Shown piece by piece: positions 1,667 through 50,953 of a DNA stretch of 64,000 nt. Every line of letters starts with the position of its first letter. Position 1 is the first letter of the stretch. This stretch comes from Pseudomonas paeninsulae (GTDB lineage Bacteria > Pseudomonadota > Gammaproteobacteria > Pseudomonadales > Pseudomonadaceae), in NCBI RefSeq assembly GCF_035621475.1, contig NZ_CP141799.1:1104501-1168500 (forward strand), read 5' to 3'. The notes below the pieces were generated by a model. The model was not told the DNA's origin. It saw only the letters and a program-made list of their open reading frames with translations, and made no database searches. Made by a program: the position numbers and the translations under genes.

Positions 1667-1884
1667 TAGCAGGCCGTTGAAAAACTACTGCGCTCGGCTA
1701 TGCGGCGTTGAAAGCGGCCCGGGACGCGGCGTCTCAAAATGCTCATTTACACCACGTAAACTGCGCTTTTGATTCGCTACGCTCACCCTGCGGGCCAGCC
1801 TCCGGCCGTTACTCCGCTTCGCTGTGTTGCGGCCGTTTTCGCCTTGCCTAGCCTTCGCTCGCTACATTTTTCAACGACCTGTTA
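1667..1884. repeat. MITE-like palindromic element abutting the stop codon of the binding-protein gene
   Basis: The two ends are imperfect inverted repeats: the left begins TAGCAGGCCGTTGAAAAA and the right, read on the other strand, TAACAGGTCGTTGAAAAA. Each then continues with GC-rich matching sequence containing GCG..CG..GGCT. Both ends carry TA, as expected for an element that duplicates a TA target, but no empty site is available to prove it. The middle holds a second palindrome: CTCAAAATGCTCATTTAC facing GTAAACTGCGCTTTTG at about 1733-1773. No coding capacity is visible. The last three bases supply the TAA stop of the minus-strand gene at 1882-2697. Relatives lie at 2997-3199 and inside the epimerase at 6928-7061. 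Confidence 0.75.
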
Positions 1885-2996: not shown

Positions 2997-3199
2997 TAAC
3001 AGCCTGGGCAAGTCATTGAAACATGTAGCGAGCGAAGGCTAGGGCCGTACCCGTTCCCTAGGGGTACGGCATTTCCCACATCCCTGTGGGGCACAAGGCG
3101 AAACGGCCGCAACGCTGCGCTTTGGTGAGGCTGATTGACTCGCTTCGCTCTGTTGCAACGCCGCATAGCCGAGCGCAGTAGTTGTTCTGCTGCTTGCTA
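2997..3199. repeat. Degenerate relative of the 1667-1884 element, ending at the stop codon of the AraC-type regulator
   Basis: Read on the plus strand this stretch starts TAACAG and soon shows ATGTAGCGAGCGAAGGCTAG, also present at the right end of the 1667-1884 element in reverse complement. It continues with AAGGCGAAACGGCCGCAAC and ends GCCGCATAGCCGAGCGCAGT, matching the other end. The centre differs: the hairpin core is missing and about 45 bases of other sequence (GGGTACGGC palindromes at 3037-3070) are present. The right end overlaps the TAG stop of the gene at 3197-3946. It is probably an old, internally rearranged copy. Confidence 0.6.
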
Positions 3200-5529: not shown

Positions 5530-6647
5530 GCACTGTGCTCCATGGGCCGGGGCGCCGGCAGAAAGCGTCTCGGTAGATAAGGGGTAGGGTCGATGGCCGC
5601 GGGTTCCTTGAACAGTTGCGCGGCGAGCAATTGGGCGCTGCCCGGCGCCGTGGTGACGCCCAGCCCTTCGTGGCCGACCGCTAGCCACAGACCGGGCTGC
5701 TGCGGATGCTCGCCGAGCAGTGGCAGGCCGTCCGGGGTGGCGGCGCGAAAACCGGTCCAGCTGCGGATGGCATTCAGCTCGGCCAGCCCCGGCAGGTAAT
5801 CCAGGGCGCGGCGCAACATGCGCGCCAGTACCGGGCCTTCCACGGCCGGGTCGAGGCTGTCGAACTGGCGCGACGAGCCGAGGAAGATCTGTCCGGTCGG
5901 CCGTGGCTGCGCATTGAAGGCCACCGAAGTGCCTGTGCTGGCGTGGGCGCTGGCGGCGTAGCCGAGTTCGACCAGTTGATGCTGGATGCGTCCGGGGTAG
6001 CGGTCGGTGATCAGCAGATGACCCTTCTTCGGCCGGATCGGCAACTCGGGGCACAGCTCGGTGGCGTGGATGCCGTTGGCCAGCACCACGGCCTCGGCCG
6101 TGAGCCAGCGGCCATCGACCAGGCGCACGCGGTTGCCGTCGACCTCGCTGACCTGCTCCTGGCGTCGGGTGATGCGTACGCCGCCCTGTTGCAGCAGCCA
6201 GTGCGCGGCATTCGGCGCGTAGAGGATGCTGTCGCCGCCGACTTTCAGCGCGCCGAGTAGACCCTTGCGCAGCATCGGCTCGGCTTGGCGCAGGGCGTTT
6301 GCATCGAGCATCTGGCAGGTGATGCCCTGGGCGCTGAGGGTTTCCCGTTTGTGTTCGGCGGCCTGCAACTCCTCGCGGTTGGCGGCCAGCCACAGGGTGC
6401 CGCAATTGCGGTAGGCGCAGCCCGCATCGAGTTGCGGCGCCCACTGCCGCCACAGCTCGATGGAGTAGCGGCTCAGAGCCAGTTCCGCCGGGTTGTCGTC
6501 CATCGCCACCAGATGGCCCATGCCGACCGCCGTGGCGCCGCCGCGCTGGCTGTCCAGCACCAGTACGTCGAGGCCGCGGCGGGCGAACTCATGGGCGCAG
6601 GCGCTGCCGACTATGCCGGCACCGACGACGATGATGTCGGCATTCAT
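5526..6647 (-). CDS. lhpB: D-hydroxyproline dehydrogenase, DAO-type FAD subunit
   Basis: A 373-residue flavoprotein of the D-amino-acid-oxidase (DAO) fold, expected to carry the substrate site of the hydroxyproline dehydrogenase. The N-terminus has the FAD-binding motif [19 protein letters not shown] (residues 4-22), then the E/D-ending strand [19 protein letters not shown]. Near the C-terminus [19 protein letters not shown] and [18 protein letters not shown] are typical of glycine and sarcosine oxidase relatives. The start at 6647 was chosen because it begins at the FAD motif and overlaps the epimerase stop by 4 bases; longer starts run through the epimerase gene. It is related to HcnC and OoxB, so only the operon context fixes the substrate. 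Confidence 0.85.
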
Positions 6648-7720
6648 GGACGAATGCCCCAGGCGAAGGGATCGTCGTCCTCCAGCAGCAGGGTGGCCTC
6701 GGCGCTGAGGTGGGCGCGACCGCGAATGGTCGGGACGATGCGCCCGTCTGCCTGCCACTCATAGCTGGCCTCGAACTGGCTGCCGATCACGCTGGCCTGG
6801 CGCCACAACTGACCGGGCTGCAGTTTGTCGTCGGCGGCCAGGCAGGCCAGCTTGGCGCTGGTGCCGGTGCCGCAGGGCGAACGGTCATAGGCCTTGCCCG
6901 GACACAGCACGAAGTTGCGGCTGTCGGCTCGCAGTGAAGCTGCTGCGCTCGATGATGCTGCGTTAAGAGCAGGCTCAAAATGCTCATTTACGCCTTGTAA
7001 ACTGCGCTTTTTCGCCTGCTCTTGCCTTGCCTCCTCTTCGCTCGCGACGCTTGGCTGCGAGCCGATCGGCGTTTCGGGATCGGCAAACAGCTCGATGTGG
7101 TCGATCTCGCCGCCATCCTCGCCGCGGATACCGTGTTGCCCCAGCGCCTGACGCACGGCCCAGCAATAGGCGGTCAGCGTTTCGAGGTTATCGCCAGCAA
7201 TGCGCTGGCCGTGTTCGCCAATCAGGAAGAACCAATTGCCGCCCCAGGCGATATCGCCGCTGACCCGGCCCAGGCCGGGCACTTCCAAGGTGACCGCCTG
7301 ACGGTAGCGGTAGGCGGGCACGTTGCGCACGCTGACCGAACGATCCTCATGCAGGGTGGCCTCGACCGTGCCGACCGGGGTTTCGATGCGGTGCAGGCCG
7401 GGCTGGATGCGGCCGAGGTGAGCGAGGGAAATTATCAGGCCGATGGTGCCGTGGCCGCACATGCCCAGATAGCCGCTGTTGTTGAAGAAGATCACCCCGG
7501 CACTGGCGCTGGGGTCCACTGGCGCGCACAGCAGCGCGCCGACCAGTACGTCGCTGCCGCGCGGTTCGAGCATGCTGGCGGCGCGCCAGTCGTCGAAGCG
7601 TTCGGCCAGTAGCTGGCGGCGCTCGCTCATGCTGCCGTGGCCCAGGTCCGGAAAACCGTCGATCACCAGGCGGGTCGGTTCACCGCCGGTGTGTGAGTCG
7701 ATGACGCGGATGCGTTGCAT
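6644..7720 (-). CDS. lhpA: Hydroxyproline 2-epimerase with an in-frame internal insertion
   Basis: The enzyme interconverts trans-4-hydroxy-L-proline and cis-4-hydroxy-D-proline with two catalytic cysteines and is the first step of the pathway. The start [20 protein letters not shown] at 7720 has a strong ribosome site (GGAGG). The first catalytic motif MCGHGTIG puts Cys at residue 88, as in the P. aeruginosa enzyme. The second, [13 protein letters not shown], puts Cys at 283 rather than about 236. The difference is a low-complexity block at residues about 219-264 (for example [17 protein letters not shown]), which no family member I know contains and which is encoded by a repeat element at 6928-7061. 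The product is 358 residues against about 310-315 usual. No stop or frameshift is present, so it may still fold with an extra surface loop; activity is uncertain. Confidence 0.85.
6928..7061. repeat. Palindromic MITE-like element inserted in frame within the epimerase gene
   Basis: The ends are imperfect inverted repeats: CTCGCAGTGAAGC on the left and, on the other strand, CTCGCAGCCAAGC on the right, each continuing with GCG..CG. The core CTCAAAATGCTCATTTAC followed by GTAAACTGCGCTTTT at about 6980-7014 is nearly identical to the core of the element at 1667-1884, so both belong to one family although their outer ends differ. The insert leaves the reading frame open on the minus strand. No clear target duplication was seen. 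Confidence 0.75.
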
Positions 7721-7730
7721 GGCTGCCTCC

Positions 7731-7751
7731 TGCACTGGAAAGGTCAGTGCA
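7731..7751. promoter_or_regulatory. Perfect inverted repeat just upstream of the epimerase ribosome site
   Basis: TGCACTG and CAGTGCA form 7-base perfect arms around a 7-base spacer, starting 11 bases upstream of the epimerase start codon and touching its Shine-Dalgarno region. It could be an operator for the operon regulator or an mRNA hairpin limiting translation. The remaining spacer, 7752-8101, shows no gene or further signal I can name. Confidence 0.35.
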
Positions 7752-9291: not shown

Positions 9292-9658
9292 ATGGATACT
9301 AAAGAACGTAGGGCTGAAATTGTAGTCACGAATGTTCTTGATCGCATTCAAGCAGAAAACAGAGCCTGGCAGGCAGACGGCAAGGATGCATGGTCCGCTT
9401 TGCGCAGTTTAGGAAGCGGAAACCTGCCGCGTGGTGATGAGTTAGTCATCGCTCGGAATCTGCATAGTGAATATCCAACATTGAAGAAGGCTCTGAAAGC
9501 CCAAGCAACTAGTTTGGGGAAATTCTGTACTGATTGTGGGCTCGGAGGTGAGGGGGGCTACACAAAGGAGCTTCATCGGATGATGTTGCCACCAGCGACC
9601 TCCCCTGAAAAAGTACGTTTACGTCTAAATGCGAATAAATACCGGGCGGTTGCAGGAG
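9292..9658 (+). pseudogene. 5' part of an unknown gene split by the IS30 element
   Basis: From ATG at 9292 (preceded by TAAGGAGG) about 122 codons run into the IS30 end at 9659. The peptide has an acidic/basic helical start (MDTKERRAEIVVTNVLDRI), a small Cys-rich spot (FCTDCGLGGEGG), and ends LRLNANKYRAVA at the junction. Residues beyond that are encoded by the insertion sequence. The matching 3' part resumes at 10743 in an open frame, so the original protein would have had roughly 500 residues. I do not recognise the family. Confidence 0.65.
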
Positions 9659-10742
9659 CTGAGTGCAACACGGTTATTGAATTGAAGCGGGCGCATCATG
9701 TTGCATCGTCATCGCTTTTTCCATCATCTCTGACATCACCTCAATTGGGCACTTCCAGTTGAAGCGCTTACGTGGACGAATGTTCAACTCATAAGCGATG
9801 GCATCCAGCTGTTCCTGGCTACATACAGACAAGTCCGTGCCCTTGGGCAGATACTGGCGAATCAGGCCATTGATGTTCTCGTTGCTGCCGCGCTGCCAGG
9901 GGCTGTGCGGGTCGCAGAAGTAGATTGCCACCCCTGTTTTCTGGGTGATCTCAGCATGCCGGGTCATTTCCCTGCCCTGGTCGTAGGTCATGCTCTTGCG
10001 CACAGCCAGCGGCATCCGGTTGAGGGCCGCACTGAAACCCTCAACCGCCGAAGTTGCCGTTGCATCGTTCATCTTGATCAGCATCAGGTAATTGCTACTG
10101 CGCTCGTTCAGCGTGCCCACAGCAGAGGCGTTGGCCTTGCCTTTGATCAGATCACCTTCCCAGTGCCCCGGCATCAAGCGGTCTTCAATCTCTGGCGGAC
10201 GCAGATGGATGCTCACCATCTCCGGGATCTGGTTGCGCCGATCAACGCCCCCTGCACGCGGCCTACGCGTACTCTTGCCCTGGCGCAGGCACTGGATCAG
10301 CTCCTTGCGCAGCTCGCCCACAGGCAGGGCATAGACCGCGCTGTAGATCGTCTCGCGGCAAACGTAAGCATCTTCAAAACTGGGAATATCCATGCTGCGC
10401 AGCTTGCCGGCAATCTGTTCGGGAGAGAAGTTTTTTCGCAGCAACTCCACCACCAACTCAAGCAGTTCGCTGCCCGGCACTAGCTTCTTTTGCGGGCGAC
10501 ACGCCTCTCGACGTTGACGCATATGCCCCTGGGCCGTAGGTGCGTGATAGATGCCGTTGGAGCCGGTGTTACGTCGCAGTTCACGACTGATCGTGGAGCG
10601 GTTGCGACCAAGTGCTTGGGCAATTGCTTGCTGGCTCATGCCATGCAACCGACCCACTTGAATCGTGGCGCGCTCTTCAATGCTGAGTTCGTGATATTCC
10701 ATTGGGCCGCACCTTACCGGAAAGGTCAGGTGTTGCACTCAG
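9659..10742 (-). mobile_element. IS30-family insertion sequence, copy 1
   Basis: The ends share the terminal inverted repeat CTGAGTGCAACAC (9659-9671, and reversed at 10730-10742). The element is 1084 bases with a single transposase on the minus strand. It interrupts a plus-strand gene. No convincing direct duplication flanks it: the left flank is GCAGGAG and the right flank TTTCCGCGG. A related but clearly different copy occupies 46297-47381 with the same end sequences. Confidence 0.88.
9674..10702 (-). CDS. IS30-family transposase
   Basis: A 342-residue DDE transposase. The N-terminal helix-turn-helix reads LSIEERATIQVGRLHGMSQ and ALGRNRSTISRELRRN. The catalytic core shows LMPGHWEGDLIKG (first Asp), MTYDQGREM (second Asp) and FCDPHSPWQRGSNENINGLI, which holds the final Glu in the family signature N-E-N-x-N. 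The start MEYHELSIEER at 10702 was chosen to match the copy at 46312-47340, which has the same length. The gene appears intact. Confidence 0.9.
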   Translation of the reverse strand: MEYHELSIEERATIQVGRLHGMSQQAIAQALGRNRSTISRELRRNTGSNGIYHAPTAQGHMRQRREACRPQKKLVPGSELLELVVELLRKNFSPEQIAGKLRSMDIPSFEDAYVCRETIYSAVYALPVGELRKELIQCLRQGKSTRRPRAGGVDRRNQIPEMVSIHLRPPEIEDRLMPGHWEGDLIKGKANASAVGTLNERSSNYLMLIKMNDATATSAVEGFSAALNRMPLAVRKSMTYDQGREMTRHAEITQKTGVAIYFCDPHSPWQRGSNENINGLIRQYLPKGTDLSVCSQEQLDAIAYELNIRPRKRFNWKCPIEVMSEMMEKAMTMQHDAPASIQ

Positions 10743-11894
10743 TTTCCGCGGCCGCCCCGTAATCTACTTCAAGGCATCGCTAGCGTTTATGGTGTCAGTG
10801 TATCCACTTTGGCAAATCGTCTAATGGTCGGAATGTCCTTGCATCCAGCAAATGCAGACGTTCGCAATGATGTATGGCAGGTTCAGGCCACCCTACAGGG
10901 TATTGTTGATCGAGTAGATAATGAGTTTGGATTATTTGCCTTATTCAAAGAAACGGCTGAACTTAAAGCCAAACATGCCGAATCAGGGGGGGCATGCAGG
11001 TGGCCGCATTGGGATGTTGAGACCCGATATCACAACTATTTTCCAAGCGATTACAGTCCATACGGTACAGATTCTATGGAGGCGGGGAATCACTTGAGGG
11101 AGATGTATCCTGAGATTGATATACCTATTAGACCTCTTAAAGTTTATTCAGATGAAGAACCTATTGCGTTTGAAAATGCCGCAAGAAGCGCTGAGTTGGC
11201 ATCTGCAATGGATACATCACGCGCCTACTGGGAGATACCCGTTACTAGCAAAATGAAGCCGGTAGACATTTGGATGGGTGGATGGTTTGTTTGCGGATGC
11301 TCGGTGGATGATAGTTTTTTTCATATTCCACATACTTATATTGGCTGTGGATATGCATTTTATGAAACAGAAATCGACATTAAGCGCAGCGCACAAGATA
11401 TTGAAGATTTGGCTCGAAAGTCATTGGAACGGCATAAAAATAGCGGCCCTATACCGGATGCTGGGTGGGATACATGGGATGAGTGCGCGCAAAAGCCTAT
11501 AGGTCCACTTTCATCCCATCCATTCGTGTATGGGGGTGTGGCCGAAAGTTATGCTTGGATCATCATTTACCCATCTCCTGACAATACAAAATTGATGCCT
11601 ATGCTTCTGGTTCCAGGTGAAGAATGTGGTCCAATATTAATACCGCTTGATACGGTCGCGCTTAGCTGGCTTAGAAGAATATATTGGATAGGTGAAAATG
11701 GTCAGATTTCAAATTTCTTCGAGCGTATAAAAACACTTATTGGTTTCAGATCGGGTGAGTCAGAGTCGATTTTTGATGGCCTTCGATTAACTGCCCCGTG
11801 GTTCAAAAAAAATCCGTTCATGAAAATGAAAGAGGCGGCCGAGCAGGATAGTGACGATATGCGGGCATATTGCCTCAGGATGGCAATTAAATAA
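10743..11894 (+). pseudogene. 3' part of the unknown gene split by IS30; possibly still translated from TTG 10809 or ATG 10824
   Basis: The frame is open from the IS30 boundary to the stop at 11894. Codons before the first possible start already look coding (RNLLQGIASVYGVSVSTLANRL, a helix-turn-helix-like run at about 10758-10823), which shows the gene was longer and has lost its 5' part to the IS. Downstream are about 360 residues, rich in Trp and Tyr (CRWPHWDVETRYHNYFPSDY, IWMGGWFVCGCSVDDSFFHI), with no family I recognise. GC content is low compared with the backbone. It precedes the tandem nuclease-like gene by 73 bases on the same strand, so the two may be functionally linked. Confidence 0.6.
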
Positions 11895-20171: not shown

Positions 20172-22091
20172 GTGCGCCAGGCATGGCGCGTTGCGCGCAA
20201 GCGCAACCAGTTTGGCTGTGGTGGCCACGCTGGTGACTTGGAGGTGCAAGTCCTCTACACACCCGGCAAGGGGAAGTGTTAGCCAGAGGCAAGGGTGTCG
20301 TGGGTGACTGCGAATCTGAAGGAAGCCCGAGGCAAAATGCTGGCCTGACGAACAGGAAGCGGATAGAGGCGGCGCAGCGGGGTGAGACGGCCCATACCGT
20401 CAAAGCCCAATACTTGCACGGAACGCTGCGACGTAGATCCGACAGGCATAAGCAGGAAGGTCGCGCGAATTACCCTGGGAGATCTGCATGTTTGCCAGTG
20501 TGCTACCGAGCGCCGCGAGGCGTCGGGATGAGCGTGCAGAAGTCAGCCGACGCCGTAATAAGTGGTGAATAACCGCGCCACCAAGGGCCGAACAGGTTAT
20601 GCCGCCAGTAGGCGTCAGAGTCTCGTCGAATGTTGAAACGCAGAATATTCTCCAAGAGAAAACTGTTACCCCAGGTCCCGGACGGTATCCGAGGATGACG
20701 GCTGACAGGGCGCAAGCATCGACGGCGTCTGTGGCGTGGACGAACGCGGAGCCGGACACGCTGATGGAGCGGGTGCTTGCACCTGCCAACCTCAAACGTG
20801 CGTATCGCCGCGTGGTCAGCAACAAGGGTGCGCCGGGTGCCGATGGCATGACGGTCTACGAATTGGCGGGCTACGTGAAACAGTATTGGCCAACCCTCAA
20901 GGCGAGGTTGCTGGCCGGCGAGTATCACCCGCAAGGTGTGCGCGCCGTTGACATCCCCAAGCCCAAAGGCGGCACAAGACAGCTGGGTATCCCCAGCGTC
21001 GTGGATCGCCTGATCCAACAGGCTCTGTTGCAACAGCTCACGCCGATCTTCGACTCGCTGTTCTCGGACTACAGCTACGGCTTTCGTCCGGGCAGAAGCG
21101 CCCACCAAGCCATCGAAACAGCCCGTGCCCATGTGGCGGCAGGCCACCGCTGGTGCGTGGAACTCGATCTGGAGAAGTTCTTCGATCGGGTCAACCACGA
21201 TGTATTGATGGCCCATGTGCAGCGCCAGGTTGAAGACAAGCGAGTGCTCAGGCTGATTCGCCGTTATCTCGAGGCCGGGGTGATGTCGGGCGGGGTCACC
21301 AGCCGCCGGCAGGAAGGGGCGCCGCAAGGCGGCCCGCTCTCGCCGTTGCTGTCGAACATCCTGCTCAACGAACTCGATCGCGAGCTGACAAAGCGGGGCC
21401 ATCGCTTCGTACGCTATGCCGATGACGCGAACATCTATGTGCGCAGCCAGCGAGCCGGTGTGCGCGTAATGGCCAGCGTTGAGCGCGTCCTGAACCGGCG
21501 GCTGAAACTGACGCTGAATCGGGAAAAGAGCCGAGTGGCACGCCCCTGGATCTGCGACTACCTGGGCTATGGGATGAGCTGGCACCAGCAGCCGAGACTG
21601 AGAGTGGCAACCATGAGCCTGCGTCGCCTGCGCGACCGACTCAGAACGCTTCTGCGTAGCAACCGGGGACGCAAGATGGCGCATGTCATCGAGCGATTAA
21701 ATCCGGTACTACGAGGCTGGAGCGGGTACTTCAAACTGAGCCAAAGCAAACGACCGCTCGAAGAGCTTGATGGCTGGGTGTGCCATAAACTTCGCTGTGT
21801 AATCTGGCGACAATGGAAACGGCCCTTTACGAGGGCGCGTAACCTGATGCGTTTAGGACTCAGTGAAGTGCGCGCCTGGAAATCGGCAGTCAACGGTCGG
21901 GGGCCATGGTGGAACTCAGGGGCATCGCATATGAATCAGGCGCTGCCAAAGAAGCTGTGGGATCGGCTTGGGCTGGTCTCAATACTGGATACGATCAACC
22001 GGCTTAGCCGCATAGCCTGAACCGCCGTATACGGAACCGTACGTACGGTGGTGTGAGAGGACGGAGGCCGTGAGGCCTCCTCCTACTCGAT
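20172..22091 (+). mobile_element. Group II intron with encoded reverse transcriptase/maturase, inserted behind a terminator
   Basis: The 5' end GTGCG at 20172-20176 is the conserved group II start. The 3' part after the maturase stop folds as domain V (ACCGCCGTA at 22021-22029 pairing with TACGGTGGT at 22044-22052). Domain VI follows (GGAGGCC, loop, GGCCTCC), ending CTACTCGAT at 22091 with the expected AY end. Total length is 1920 bases. Position right behind a rho-independent terminator matches the target preference described for class C introns. The long 5' part 20172-20598 holds the ribozyme domains. Exact ends are judged from consensus only. Confidence 0.85.
20695..22020 (+). CDS. Group II intron reverse transcriptase/maturase, no endonuclease domain
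   Basis: The 441-residue protein has the reverse transcriptase blocks in order (NKGAPGADGMTV, PKPKGGTRQLGIPSVVDRLI, YGFRPGRSAHQAI, ELDLEKFFDRVNHD, EGAPQGGPLSPLLSNI and the catalytic RYADDANIYV). The maturase X domain follows from about 340 (RGWSGYFKLSQ, WRQWKRPFTRARNL). There is no HNH domain, as in class C and related introns, which use nicked or single-stranded DNA at replication forks. Frame and catalytic residues are intact, so it may be active. The frame extends upstream to 20599, within intron RNA domain IV; the ATG at 20695 was chosen because recognisable protein begins there. Confidence 0.9.
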   Translation: MTADRAQASTASVAWTNAEPDTLMERVLAPANLKRAYRRVVSNKGAPGADGMTVYELAGYVKQYWPTLKARLLAGEYHPQGVRAVDIPKPKGGTRQLGIPSVVDRLIQQALLQQLTPIFDSLFSDYSYGFRPGRSAHQAIETARAHVAAGHRWCVELDLEKFFDRVNHDVLMAHVQRQVEDKRVLRLIRRYLEAGVMSGGVTSRRQEGAPQGGPLSPLLSNILLNELDRELTKRGHRFVRYADDANIYVRSQRAGVRVMASVERVLNRRLKLTLNREKSRVARPWICDYLGYGMSWHQQPRLRVATMSLRRLRDRLRTLLRSNRGRKMAHVIERLNPVLRGWSGYFKLSQSKRPLEELDGWVCHKLRCVIWRQWKRPFTRARNLMRLGLSEVRAWKSAVNGRGPWWNSGASHMNQALPKKLWDRLGLVSILDTINRLSRIA

Positions 22092-46286: not shown

Positions 46287-46296
46287 GGTGCAGGAG

Positions 46297-47381
46297 CTGA
46301 GTGCAACACGGTTATTGAATTGAGGCTGGAGCATCATGCTGCATTGTCATGGCCTTTTGCATTACTTCCCCAATAACTTCGATCGGGCATTTAAAGTCGA
46401 AGCGTTTACGGGGACGCATATTCATTTGCAAGGCAATGGCATCCAACGTTTCCTGGCTATGCACCGACAAGTCCGTTCCTTTGGGCAGGTACTGACGGAT
46501 CAGGCCGTTGATGTTTTCGTTGCTGCCGCGCTGCCAGGGACTGTGTGGGTCGCAGAAGTAAATTGCCACCCCGGTCTGCTGGGTGATTTCAGCATGCCGC
46601 GCCATTTCTCGACCCTGGTCGTAGGTCATGCTCTTGCGCATCGCCAACGGCATGCCATTGAGCGCTGCACTGAAGCCCTCCATCGCCGAGGTTGCCGTCG
46701 CGTCATTCATCTTCACCAGCATCAGGTAGCCACTGGTGCGCTCCACCAACGTGCCTACAGACGAGGCGTTGGCCTTACCCTTGATCAGGTCGCCTTCCCA
46801 ATGCCCCGGCATCAGCCGGTCTTCGATCTCCGGCGGGCGCACATGAATGCTGACCATCTCGGGGATCTGTCCGCGCCGATCCACGCCGCCAGAACGCGGT
46901 CTGCGCGTCGTCTTGCTTTGGCGCAGGCAGATGATCAGCTCCTTACGCAGCTCGCCGACCGGCAAGGCATAGATCGCGTTATAGATCGTCTCGCGACAGA
47001 CGTAGGCATCTCTGAGGCTGGGAATGTTCATGCTGCGCAGCTTGCCGGCAATCTGCGCGGGAGACAAACGCTCACGCAGCATATGGGCCACCAACTCGAA
47101 GCGCTCGCTACCCGGCAACAGTTTTCGCATCGGTCGACAAACCTGACGGCGGTCCTGCATCTGCTGCTGGGCCAAGCGGGCCGAGTAGCCGCCACAGGCA
47201 TCTCGATTGCGGCGCAGCTCACGGCTGATGGTCGAAGGGGATCGGGTGATTAAGCAGGCAATCTTGCGCAGGCTGAAGCCTTGGGCACGACCGATTTGAA
47301 TGGTGGCGCGCTCTTCAACGCTGAGTTCTGAATAAGACATAGGGGCAGCACCGTACCGGAAAGGTCAGGTGTTGCACTCAG
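46297..47381 (-). mobile_element. IS30-family insertion sequence, copy 2
   Basis: The terminal repeats CTGAGTGCAACAC at 46297-46309 and its reverse at 47369-47381 match those of the copy at 9659-10742, and the flanking GCAGGAG on the left is also shared. It is 1085 bases with one transposase on the minus strand. It lies between the attC-like site and the truncated integrase, and no target duplication is visible, so a deletion next to the IS is likely. Confidence 0.88.
46312..47340 (-). CDS. IS30-family transposase
   Basis: A 342-residue DDE transposase with the same motifs as the gene at 9674-10702 (LMPGHWEGDLIKG, MTYDQGREM, FCDPHSPWQRGSNENINGLI) but many substitutions in the N-terminal DNA-binding part (IGRAQGFSLRKIACLITRSP). 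The two are therefore separate arrivals or old duplicates, not a recent copy of each other. Frame intact. Confidence 0.9.
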   Translation of the reverse strand: MSYSELSVEERATIQIGRAQGFSLRKIACLITRSPSTISRELRRNRDACGGYSARLAQQQMQDRRQVCRPMRKLLPGSERFELVAHMLRERLSPAQIAGKLRSMNIPSLRDAYVCRETIYNAIYALPVGELRKELIICLRQSKTTRRPRSGGVDRRGQIPEMVSIHVRPPEIEDRLMPGHWEGDLIKGKANASSVGTLVERTSGYLMLVKMNDATATSAMEGFSAALNGMPLAMRKSMTYDQGREMARHAEITQQTGVAIYFCDPHSPWQRGSNENINGLIRQYLPKGTDLSVHSQETLDAIALQMNMRPRKRFDFKCPIEVIGEVMQKAMTMQHDAPASIQ

Positions 47382-47833
47382 TTTTTGCCGCCGCCCGTTT
47401 TCATCGCTATCGTCACCCTCTCGAGATGGGGGCGGCTGAAGTAGAGGCTTTCCTATCTGATCTCGCGGTAGGCAGAAATGTGTCCGCTTCCACGCAGAAT
47501 CAGGCGTTGGCTGCTCTGTTGTTTCTCTACAAGCAGGTGTTCAAGCTGGATCTGCCGTGGCTCGGGGAAATCGTCCGGGCGAAGAAGCCTGTGCGTTTAC
47601 CAGTGGTGCTAAGCATCGCCGAGGTTCGTCAGGTGTTGGCAGGGCTCAAGGGCGAGCTTTGGCTGGTTGGCAGTCTGCTGTAAGGCTCGGGCATGTGCTT
47701 GATGGAGGTTATGCGCTTGCGGGTCAAGGATGTGGACTTTACCCGCGGCGAGATTCTGGTACGTGATGGCAAAGGCCAGAAGGACTGCGGTTATGCCCGC
47801 CAAGCATCGAGGCGATGCCTGGGTGCGCGATAG
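47382..47833 (+). pseudogene. Integron integrase (IntI) remnant
   Basis: The frame starts at the IS30 edge with RFHRYRHPLEMGAAEVEAFL, then NVSASTQNQALAALLFLYKQ and DLPWLGEIVRAKKPVRLPVVLS, the SAM-like and linker segments of an IntI tyrosine recombinase. After VGSLL a TAA stop at 47681 replaces the usual Tyr of LYGSG. Reading on gives [19 protein letters not shown], where the catalytic Arg of GMRLMEV is Cys. The sequence then shifts frame and fades after GKGQKD. The N-terminal about 50 residues are missing at the IS junction. It is clearly non-functional. Confidence 0.82.
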
Positions 47834-50900: not shown

Positions 50901-50953
50901 CTGTAGGAGCGGGCCATGCCCACGACTATCGCGGGCATGGCCCGCTCCTACAG
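50901..50953. repeat. REP/REPIN pair between glyA and sdaA
   Basis: CTGTAGGAGCGGGCCATGCC and GGCATGGCCCGCTCCTACAG form a nearly perfect 25-base palindrome with a 3-4 base loop, one G-T mismatch only. It lies 24 bases past the glyA stop and 41 bases before the sdaA start. Confidence 0.88.

Follow-up and report, generated by a model that had tools for sequence, protein, structure and literature searches.

A palindromic repeat element lying in frame within Pseudomonas 4-hydroxyproline epimerase genes, most likely an old and tolerated insertion

Small palindromic repeats are known from several genomes, and some of them lie inside protein genes. The Rickettsia palindromic elements (RPEs), of about 105-150 bp, are described in the excerpts cited here as dispersed and as lying in frame in conserved protein genes; a fusion in guanylate kinase is reported there to be translated and active, with altered substrate affinity (PMC2229807, PMC10969869). 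Among the small hairpin-forming miniature inverted-repeat transposable elements (MITEs), ERIC/RU-1 and Correia/NEMIS are likewise said, in the excerpted account, to form in-frame fusions with open reading frames (ORFs) on occasion (PMC2229807). The quoted parts of a study of Pseudomonas fluorescens present intergenic repeats (R0, R2, R178, R200 and others) and REPs as dispersed, several having inverted repeats and predicted hairpins (PMC2718517), and an excerpt on nematomorph mitochondria reports long inverted repeats inside working protein genes (PMC6649704). Here we describe a palindromic element that lies in frame within a 4-hydroxyproline epimerase gene of Pseudomonas paeninsulae, in a stretch of 64,000 nucleotides (contig NZ_CP141799.1, positions 1,104,501 to 1,168,500; hereafter the window).

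No description of the element or of the insert was found in the literature searched, a scope that excludes most subscription papers. Computation establishes the element itself, its open frame, its sharing across species, the existence of intermediate lengths, purifying selection, and change that is biased with respect to pairing; the sharing across species is new beyond what a single sequence can offer. Sequence comparison and structure modelling together make it probable that this is a single old insertion, tolerated by a presumably translated and active enzyme, which was inherited and then shortened or replaced.

The insert and its host gene

The host ORF spans 6644-7735 on the minus strand, with a GTG at 7735 and a likely start at the ATG at 7720, giving a protein of 358 aa. 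It is a member of the NCBIfam family PRK13970 (533.4 bits, curated cut-off 442), which it matches in two stretches, the best covering residues 6-220 as counted from the GTG; with 422.8 bits, the neighbouring model NF052296 stays under its cut-off of 450. According to the ORF list, it is seemingly the first of several genes read leftwards, a putative operon. Cys88 (codon 7457-7459, minus strand) and Cys283 (6872-6874, minus strand), located by alignment, which we take to be the two catalytic cysteines, stand in invariant columns in alignments of 32 and of 102 sequences. Relative to 311-residue homologs the protein has 47 extra residues ahead of the second conserved cysteine, and the frame is open across them. 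A phmmer alignment with PA1268 (2azp), which shares the family and fold of the window epimerase but is without the insert, covers residues 1-215 and 264-357, the two blocks being separated by a single chain residue.

The insert itself occupies 6926-7063 on the minus strand (138 nt, residues 220-265; net gain of 47 codons over empty alleles). It is bounded by 9-bp inverted arms, GGCTCGCAG at 6926-6934 (+), identical in the 11 inserted epimerases read as DNA, and its reverse complement CTGCGAGCC at 7055-7063 (+). Between them, a profile match at 6937-7049 (+) defines the core common to a dispersed family, whose best conserved part contains the apical hairpin ATTTAC-GCCTT-GTAAAC (6986-7002, +). 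A possible target-site repeat, TCGGC at 6924-6928 (+), was read from the sequence and the empty alleles and overlaps the arm; a tentative second copy, read from the sequence, lies at 7066-7070 (+), and the spacing of the two, 142, is one above the net gain of 141 nt. Folded as RNA, the insert reaches -66.5 kcal/mol (z -5.7), a stability equalled by none of 200 shuffles; as DNA it reaches -36.3 (z -4.25), equalled by one of 200. Rfam has no match at gathering score over the element, the two mir-3926 matches, at 18.9 and 18.6 bits, being far under the cut-off of 82. Among 32 family copies, the epimerase copy included, 41 of 192 frames are free of stop codons, so insertion in an open frame is not remarkable by itself. 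The first-pass annotation of this DNA had set the repeat at 6928-7061, correct to within 2 nt of the armed element, and its further statements, of some 46 extra residues, two intact cysteines and an open frame, all hold; the family matches in the genome and the stable fold show the repeat to be beyond chance.

An AlphaFold2 (AF2) model from 102 aligned sequences (pLDDT 88.7, pTM 0.83) supersedes one built on 32 close homologs only (pLDDT 64.4). It places the insert between strands 208-213 and 267-272, outside an unchanged fold, with a helix predicted at residues 225-241 at moderate confidence and residues 244-261 scoring under 50; once low-confidence stretches are trimmed, the model fits PA1268 at 1.1 A over 311 residues. 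The insert is likely to be a tolerated surface loop, much as the annotation had supposed in suggesting an added loop, and by its sequence and model the enzyme that carries it looks functional.

Carriers of the insert and the dispersed family

The full insert, at the same site and in the same orientation and frame, was found in at least 8 of the 398 genomes sampled from the genus, among the matches listed; in a ninth (G188), where it begins at a contig end, it is cut. The 54 parsed loci comprise these 8, 43 empty alleles with one common short loop, 2 unparsed and 1 cut. A natural empty allele, that of G060, is 94% identical to the window protein across its first 217 residues. A search for the armed element across 84,980 species genomes returned seven stretches, all in frame within the epimerase ORF, in Stutzerimonas azotifigens, P. 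punonensis, P. alcaligenes RU38D and strains CC6-YY-74, PA27(2017), SJZ079 and F(2018). The two sets overlap by four, leaving 11 distinct inserts read as DNA, whose peptides are 69-100% identical; all 11 carry the repeat, and among the relatives read as DNA none was seen with the extra block but without repeat homology. At the protein level, 10 of 120 listed homologs (P0001-P0006, P0008-P0010 and P0015) have the full insert in the same place. The annotation's description of such a case as rare holds at the scale of genomes, but the insert is neither unique nor recent. A recent one-off insertion or an assembly error is practically out of the question: the 11 distinct carrier genomes rule out both, and since independent assemblies carry the insert, error is very unlikely.

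Intermediate lengths occur, at the protein level, in 18 of 169 homologs, where states were assigned by length alone and 11-44 residues were counted as a remnant; by eye, 17 of them retain recognisable insert residues, P0034 being doubtful. A search of the 398 genus genomes with one shortened-allele protein gave no shortened allele among the matches listed. The insert peptide, sought in proteins of 0.55-1.75 times the length, gave 5 hits among 134 candidates, all epimerases. Between close genomes, L009 differs from L059 and L060 by six bases in the 3' arm of the insert, with changed adjacent bases (SS versus CAKP).

The core belongs to a family dispersed through the P. paeninsulae genome, where at least 34 blastn matches to the element were found (40 of 77 candidates scored); an iterated profile from the window core gave 39 hits, distributed over the window and 31 own-genome loci. 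Counting this genome, family matches are present in 32 of 57. Copies share a core of approximately ATTTAC-N5-GTAAAC, or near variants, and differ in their outer arms. The profile hits in the window include 1682-1865, within an intergenic copy at 1667-1884 (+) that was recognised by sequence match and profile and has arms TAGCAGGCCGTTGAAAAA and an extra inner segment, and part of a degenerate copy at 3009-3199 (-), of which only 3149-3183 passes. The homology that the annotation had drawn between the epimerase insert and the spacer repeat at 1667-1884 is borne out by 38 nt at 92% and by a single profile that finds both. As in MITEs, the copies are short, numerous and without a transposase gene, and have terminal inverted repeats. 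At L155, a copy in a same-species genome, left flank and element match the P. paeninsulae genome in different places, the flank in one and the element in others, with no single stretch matching both; compared with the 31 own-genome loci, 6 of 14 copies from that same-species genome match a locus nearly full length and 8 only around the element. Both comparisons fit mobility.

Of the 39 profile hits, only the epimerase copy was judged to be within a recognised gene and flanked by coding sequence; it is the sole clear case in the search of other ORFs that the annotation had proposed. Four more hits, as frames only, can be read without a stop through the element and for at least 240 nt ahead of it: L119 at 392, L134 on its minus strand, the window copy at 3149-3183, and L138 at 478; that of L134 is antisense to a long frame which ends at the element. 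In 7 of 30 copies (L110, L114, L117, L128, L133, L134 and L136) the left end of the core is at most 7 nt from the stop of a putative frame of at least 240 nt, TGA in four and TAA in three, which gives the impression that the element adjoins or provides the ends of genes. Longer copies have various extra inner segments (window 1682-1865, for example GATTCGCTACGCTCACCCTGCGGGCC, and L127, L129, L132, L136 and L138).

The commonest arm type (A-type) has 58 matches, and the arms of the epimerase copy have a different sequence. Forward-to-reverse spacings of A-type arms are at most 328 nt, with two exceptions, of 1743 and 1625 nt, that each span from one complete copy to another; for this one arm type, inspection by eye of the ORFs between those pairs gave no transposase. 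A-type pairs flank about 1.4 kb of ordinary-looking genes at G000:C1:656200-658000 and 3631000-3632700 (L200 and L201). At G000:C1:3923018-3923056, 39 bp consist of two inverted A-type arms without a core, perhaps the remnant of a near-precise deletion. A plasmid search with the spacer copy gave partial matches in 3 records, with no annotated feature beneath them.

History of the insert and constraints upon it

Outside the insert, dN/dS averages 0.182 in 55 inserted pairs, and it averages 0.190 among empty alleles (64 of 66 pairs, 12 chosen alleles); these values indicate that the enzyme is maintained with and without the insert. In blast searches against the compared loci, the inserts align with one another from end to end, arms included, at 82-99%; among the matches listed, alignments to other copies are shorter, confined to the core and no better than 88%. 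None of 173 other loci has both 9-bp arms at fewer than 3 mismatches, the nearest having 3 in the two arms together. Since the inserts share outer arms that are exact in no other copy examined, one origin is most likely. Insert distance also tracks gene distance (Mantel r 0.71, 1 of 2000 permutations). We propose that a non-autonomous, palindromic, MITE-like element entered a surface turn of the epimerase once, long ago, in a Pseudomonas ancestor, in a frame and orientation free of stop codons. Translation of the insert would add a loop of 47 residues, helical in part and disordered for the most part, and because that loop would lie outside the folded core, the enzyme could go on working under normal purifying selection. 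The insert would then have diverged mostly alongside its host gene, frame-keeping deletions would have shortened it in several lineages, and elsewhere it may have been replaced by, or sorted against, empty alleles, with loss perhaps by recombination or hairpin-promoted deletion.

Several observations weigh against this history. On a gene tree built without the insert columns (169 rows, near-copies included: 133 empty, 18 full, 18 intermediate), the three states are clustered but patchy: they require 23 changes, where all 200 shuffles required more, and starred branches by themselves impose 6 on the full insert. The empty alleles that occur in inserted clades (ADDDT, ADDAE) do not resemble what excision from an inserted allele (DPExP..GSQ) would leave, and simple loss is therefore inadequate for them. 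No clear gene conversion, as a trace of any exchange of insert and empty alleles, was visible around the insert. Within the insert the mean distance is 0.102, and at third positions of the gene it is 0.283; a change about 2.8 times smaller would be unexpected for a purely passive passenger. Insertion followed by inheritance, shortening, and replacement by or sorting against empty alleles is still the simplest reading, its exchange step being presumed. Repeated invasion of the one site, by site-specific or homing-like spread, would account for the patchy label and for an insert much less diverged than its gene, and exact armed elements were indeed seen in the epimerase gene only; flank similarity between inserted clades also hardly exceeds that between empty ones, apart from a right flank slightly more alike in G1-ALC inserted pairs (0.84/0.89 versus 0.79/0.76). 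We consider such spread unlikely, given that insert types follow gene clades, that no source copy with these arms appeared (in the matches listed for 8 genomes, the 173 other loci or the 7 scan hits), and that no partner transposase was seen for the commonest arm type.

What conserves the insert is a separate matter. Conservation follows hairpin pairing more than the peptide, because paired positions are spared (17 of 98 paired columns vary, against 18 of 40 unpaired; p 0.0012) and there is no third-position excess: variable columns fall 6/15/14 by codon position, versus 64/51/187 in 265 gene codons (p 0.017 for the third-position share). That pattern makes a domesticated peptide, a loop useful to the enzyme, very improbable, despite the peptide identity among the 11 genomes and the predicted helix; insert dN is close to dS in many pairs, and many homologs, close ones among them, have the insert shortened or not at all. 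Where the annotation had offered "domesticated or tolerated", tolerance in frame stands and the useful peptide does not. A hairpin kept for a task in the mRNA, such as RNase III cutting or attenuation within the leading gene of a hydroxyproline operon, is a more serious, if still tentative, alternative. Besides the pairing bias, the low dS within the insert and the apparent position of the epimerase at the head of several genes, it draws on pairs of the window fold being kept at 96.7% in the 11 inserts, against 76-90% in 8 overlapping, identically treated windows of the same gene, although in 2 of these unpaired columns are also clearly more variable than paired ones. RNAalifold finds 5 compensatory pairs in the insert; 17 cells show change on both sides, where shuffles, which ignore relatedness, give 7.6 (0 of 500), and the covariation score is 0.082 against 0.045 (0 of 500). 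Yet pairs with a double change are not raised (4 versus 3.7; 295 of 500 as high), further pair types number 5, below the 8.2 of shuffles, and the few double changes probably stem from few events. Empty and shortened alleles are common, and structure is conserved in the family elsewhere, with at least one compensatory change in 28 of 36 consensus pairs across 22 copies picked for absence of long inner insertions, so the constraint need not be this gene's own. Matched changes in the two arms can also arise when quasi-palindromes are repaired by template switching. In favour of an mRNA task, RNase III is described, in an excerpt, as cutting structured MITE RNAs in Neisseria (PMC10969869). The pairing-biased conservation may stem from function, from element biology or from quasi-palindrome repair, and we hold it doubtful that the hairpin is selected at the nucleic-acid level, probably in the operon mRNA, with the peptide merely tolerated.

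Neighbouring features and comparison with known elements

Elsewhere in the window, parts of a group II intron lie at 20298-22091 (+) (RF02001 at 140 bits, RF01998 and RF00029). Two diverged copies, 82% alike over 300 nt, at 9651-10757 and 46289-47396, surround a transposase-like gene with inverted ends, presumably of IS30 type. A near-perfect 25-bp inverted repeat, CTGTAGGAGCGGGCC..., at 50901-50953, is one that we take to resemble the REP/IR1_g type.

The epimerase site offers full, partial and empty natural alleles, closely related to one another, in an enzyme with solved structures, a series in which the cost, benefit and decay of an insertion are directly testable and which helps to separate constraint on a peptide from constraint on a nucleic-acid hairpin. 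The likeness of the element to the P. fluorescens repeat families, also dispersed in Pseudomonas, is one of description only, as far as the cited excerpts go. ERIC/RU-1 and Correia/NEMIS, too, are likened here by description and not by sequence; they belong to other hosts and are portrayed in the excerpts as mainly intergenic. In the nematomorph palindromes, as excerpted, both arms encode conserved protein, whereas the epimerase element appears as an added loop. By analogy, the insert works most like the RPEs, its closest precedent: in the accounts excerpted here these are palindromic and in frame in conserved genes, as is the epimerase element, the likeness being one of organisation and not of compared sequences. 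They entered many genes in another organism, while here the epimerase is the only clear case, and the intermediate lengths and pairing-biased conservation of the epimerase element set it apart in that comparison. The best documented cases of palindromic elements in frame within enzymes come from Rickettsia; in this free-living genus, the epimerase insert is most likely an old, tolerated passenger of the same kind.
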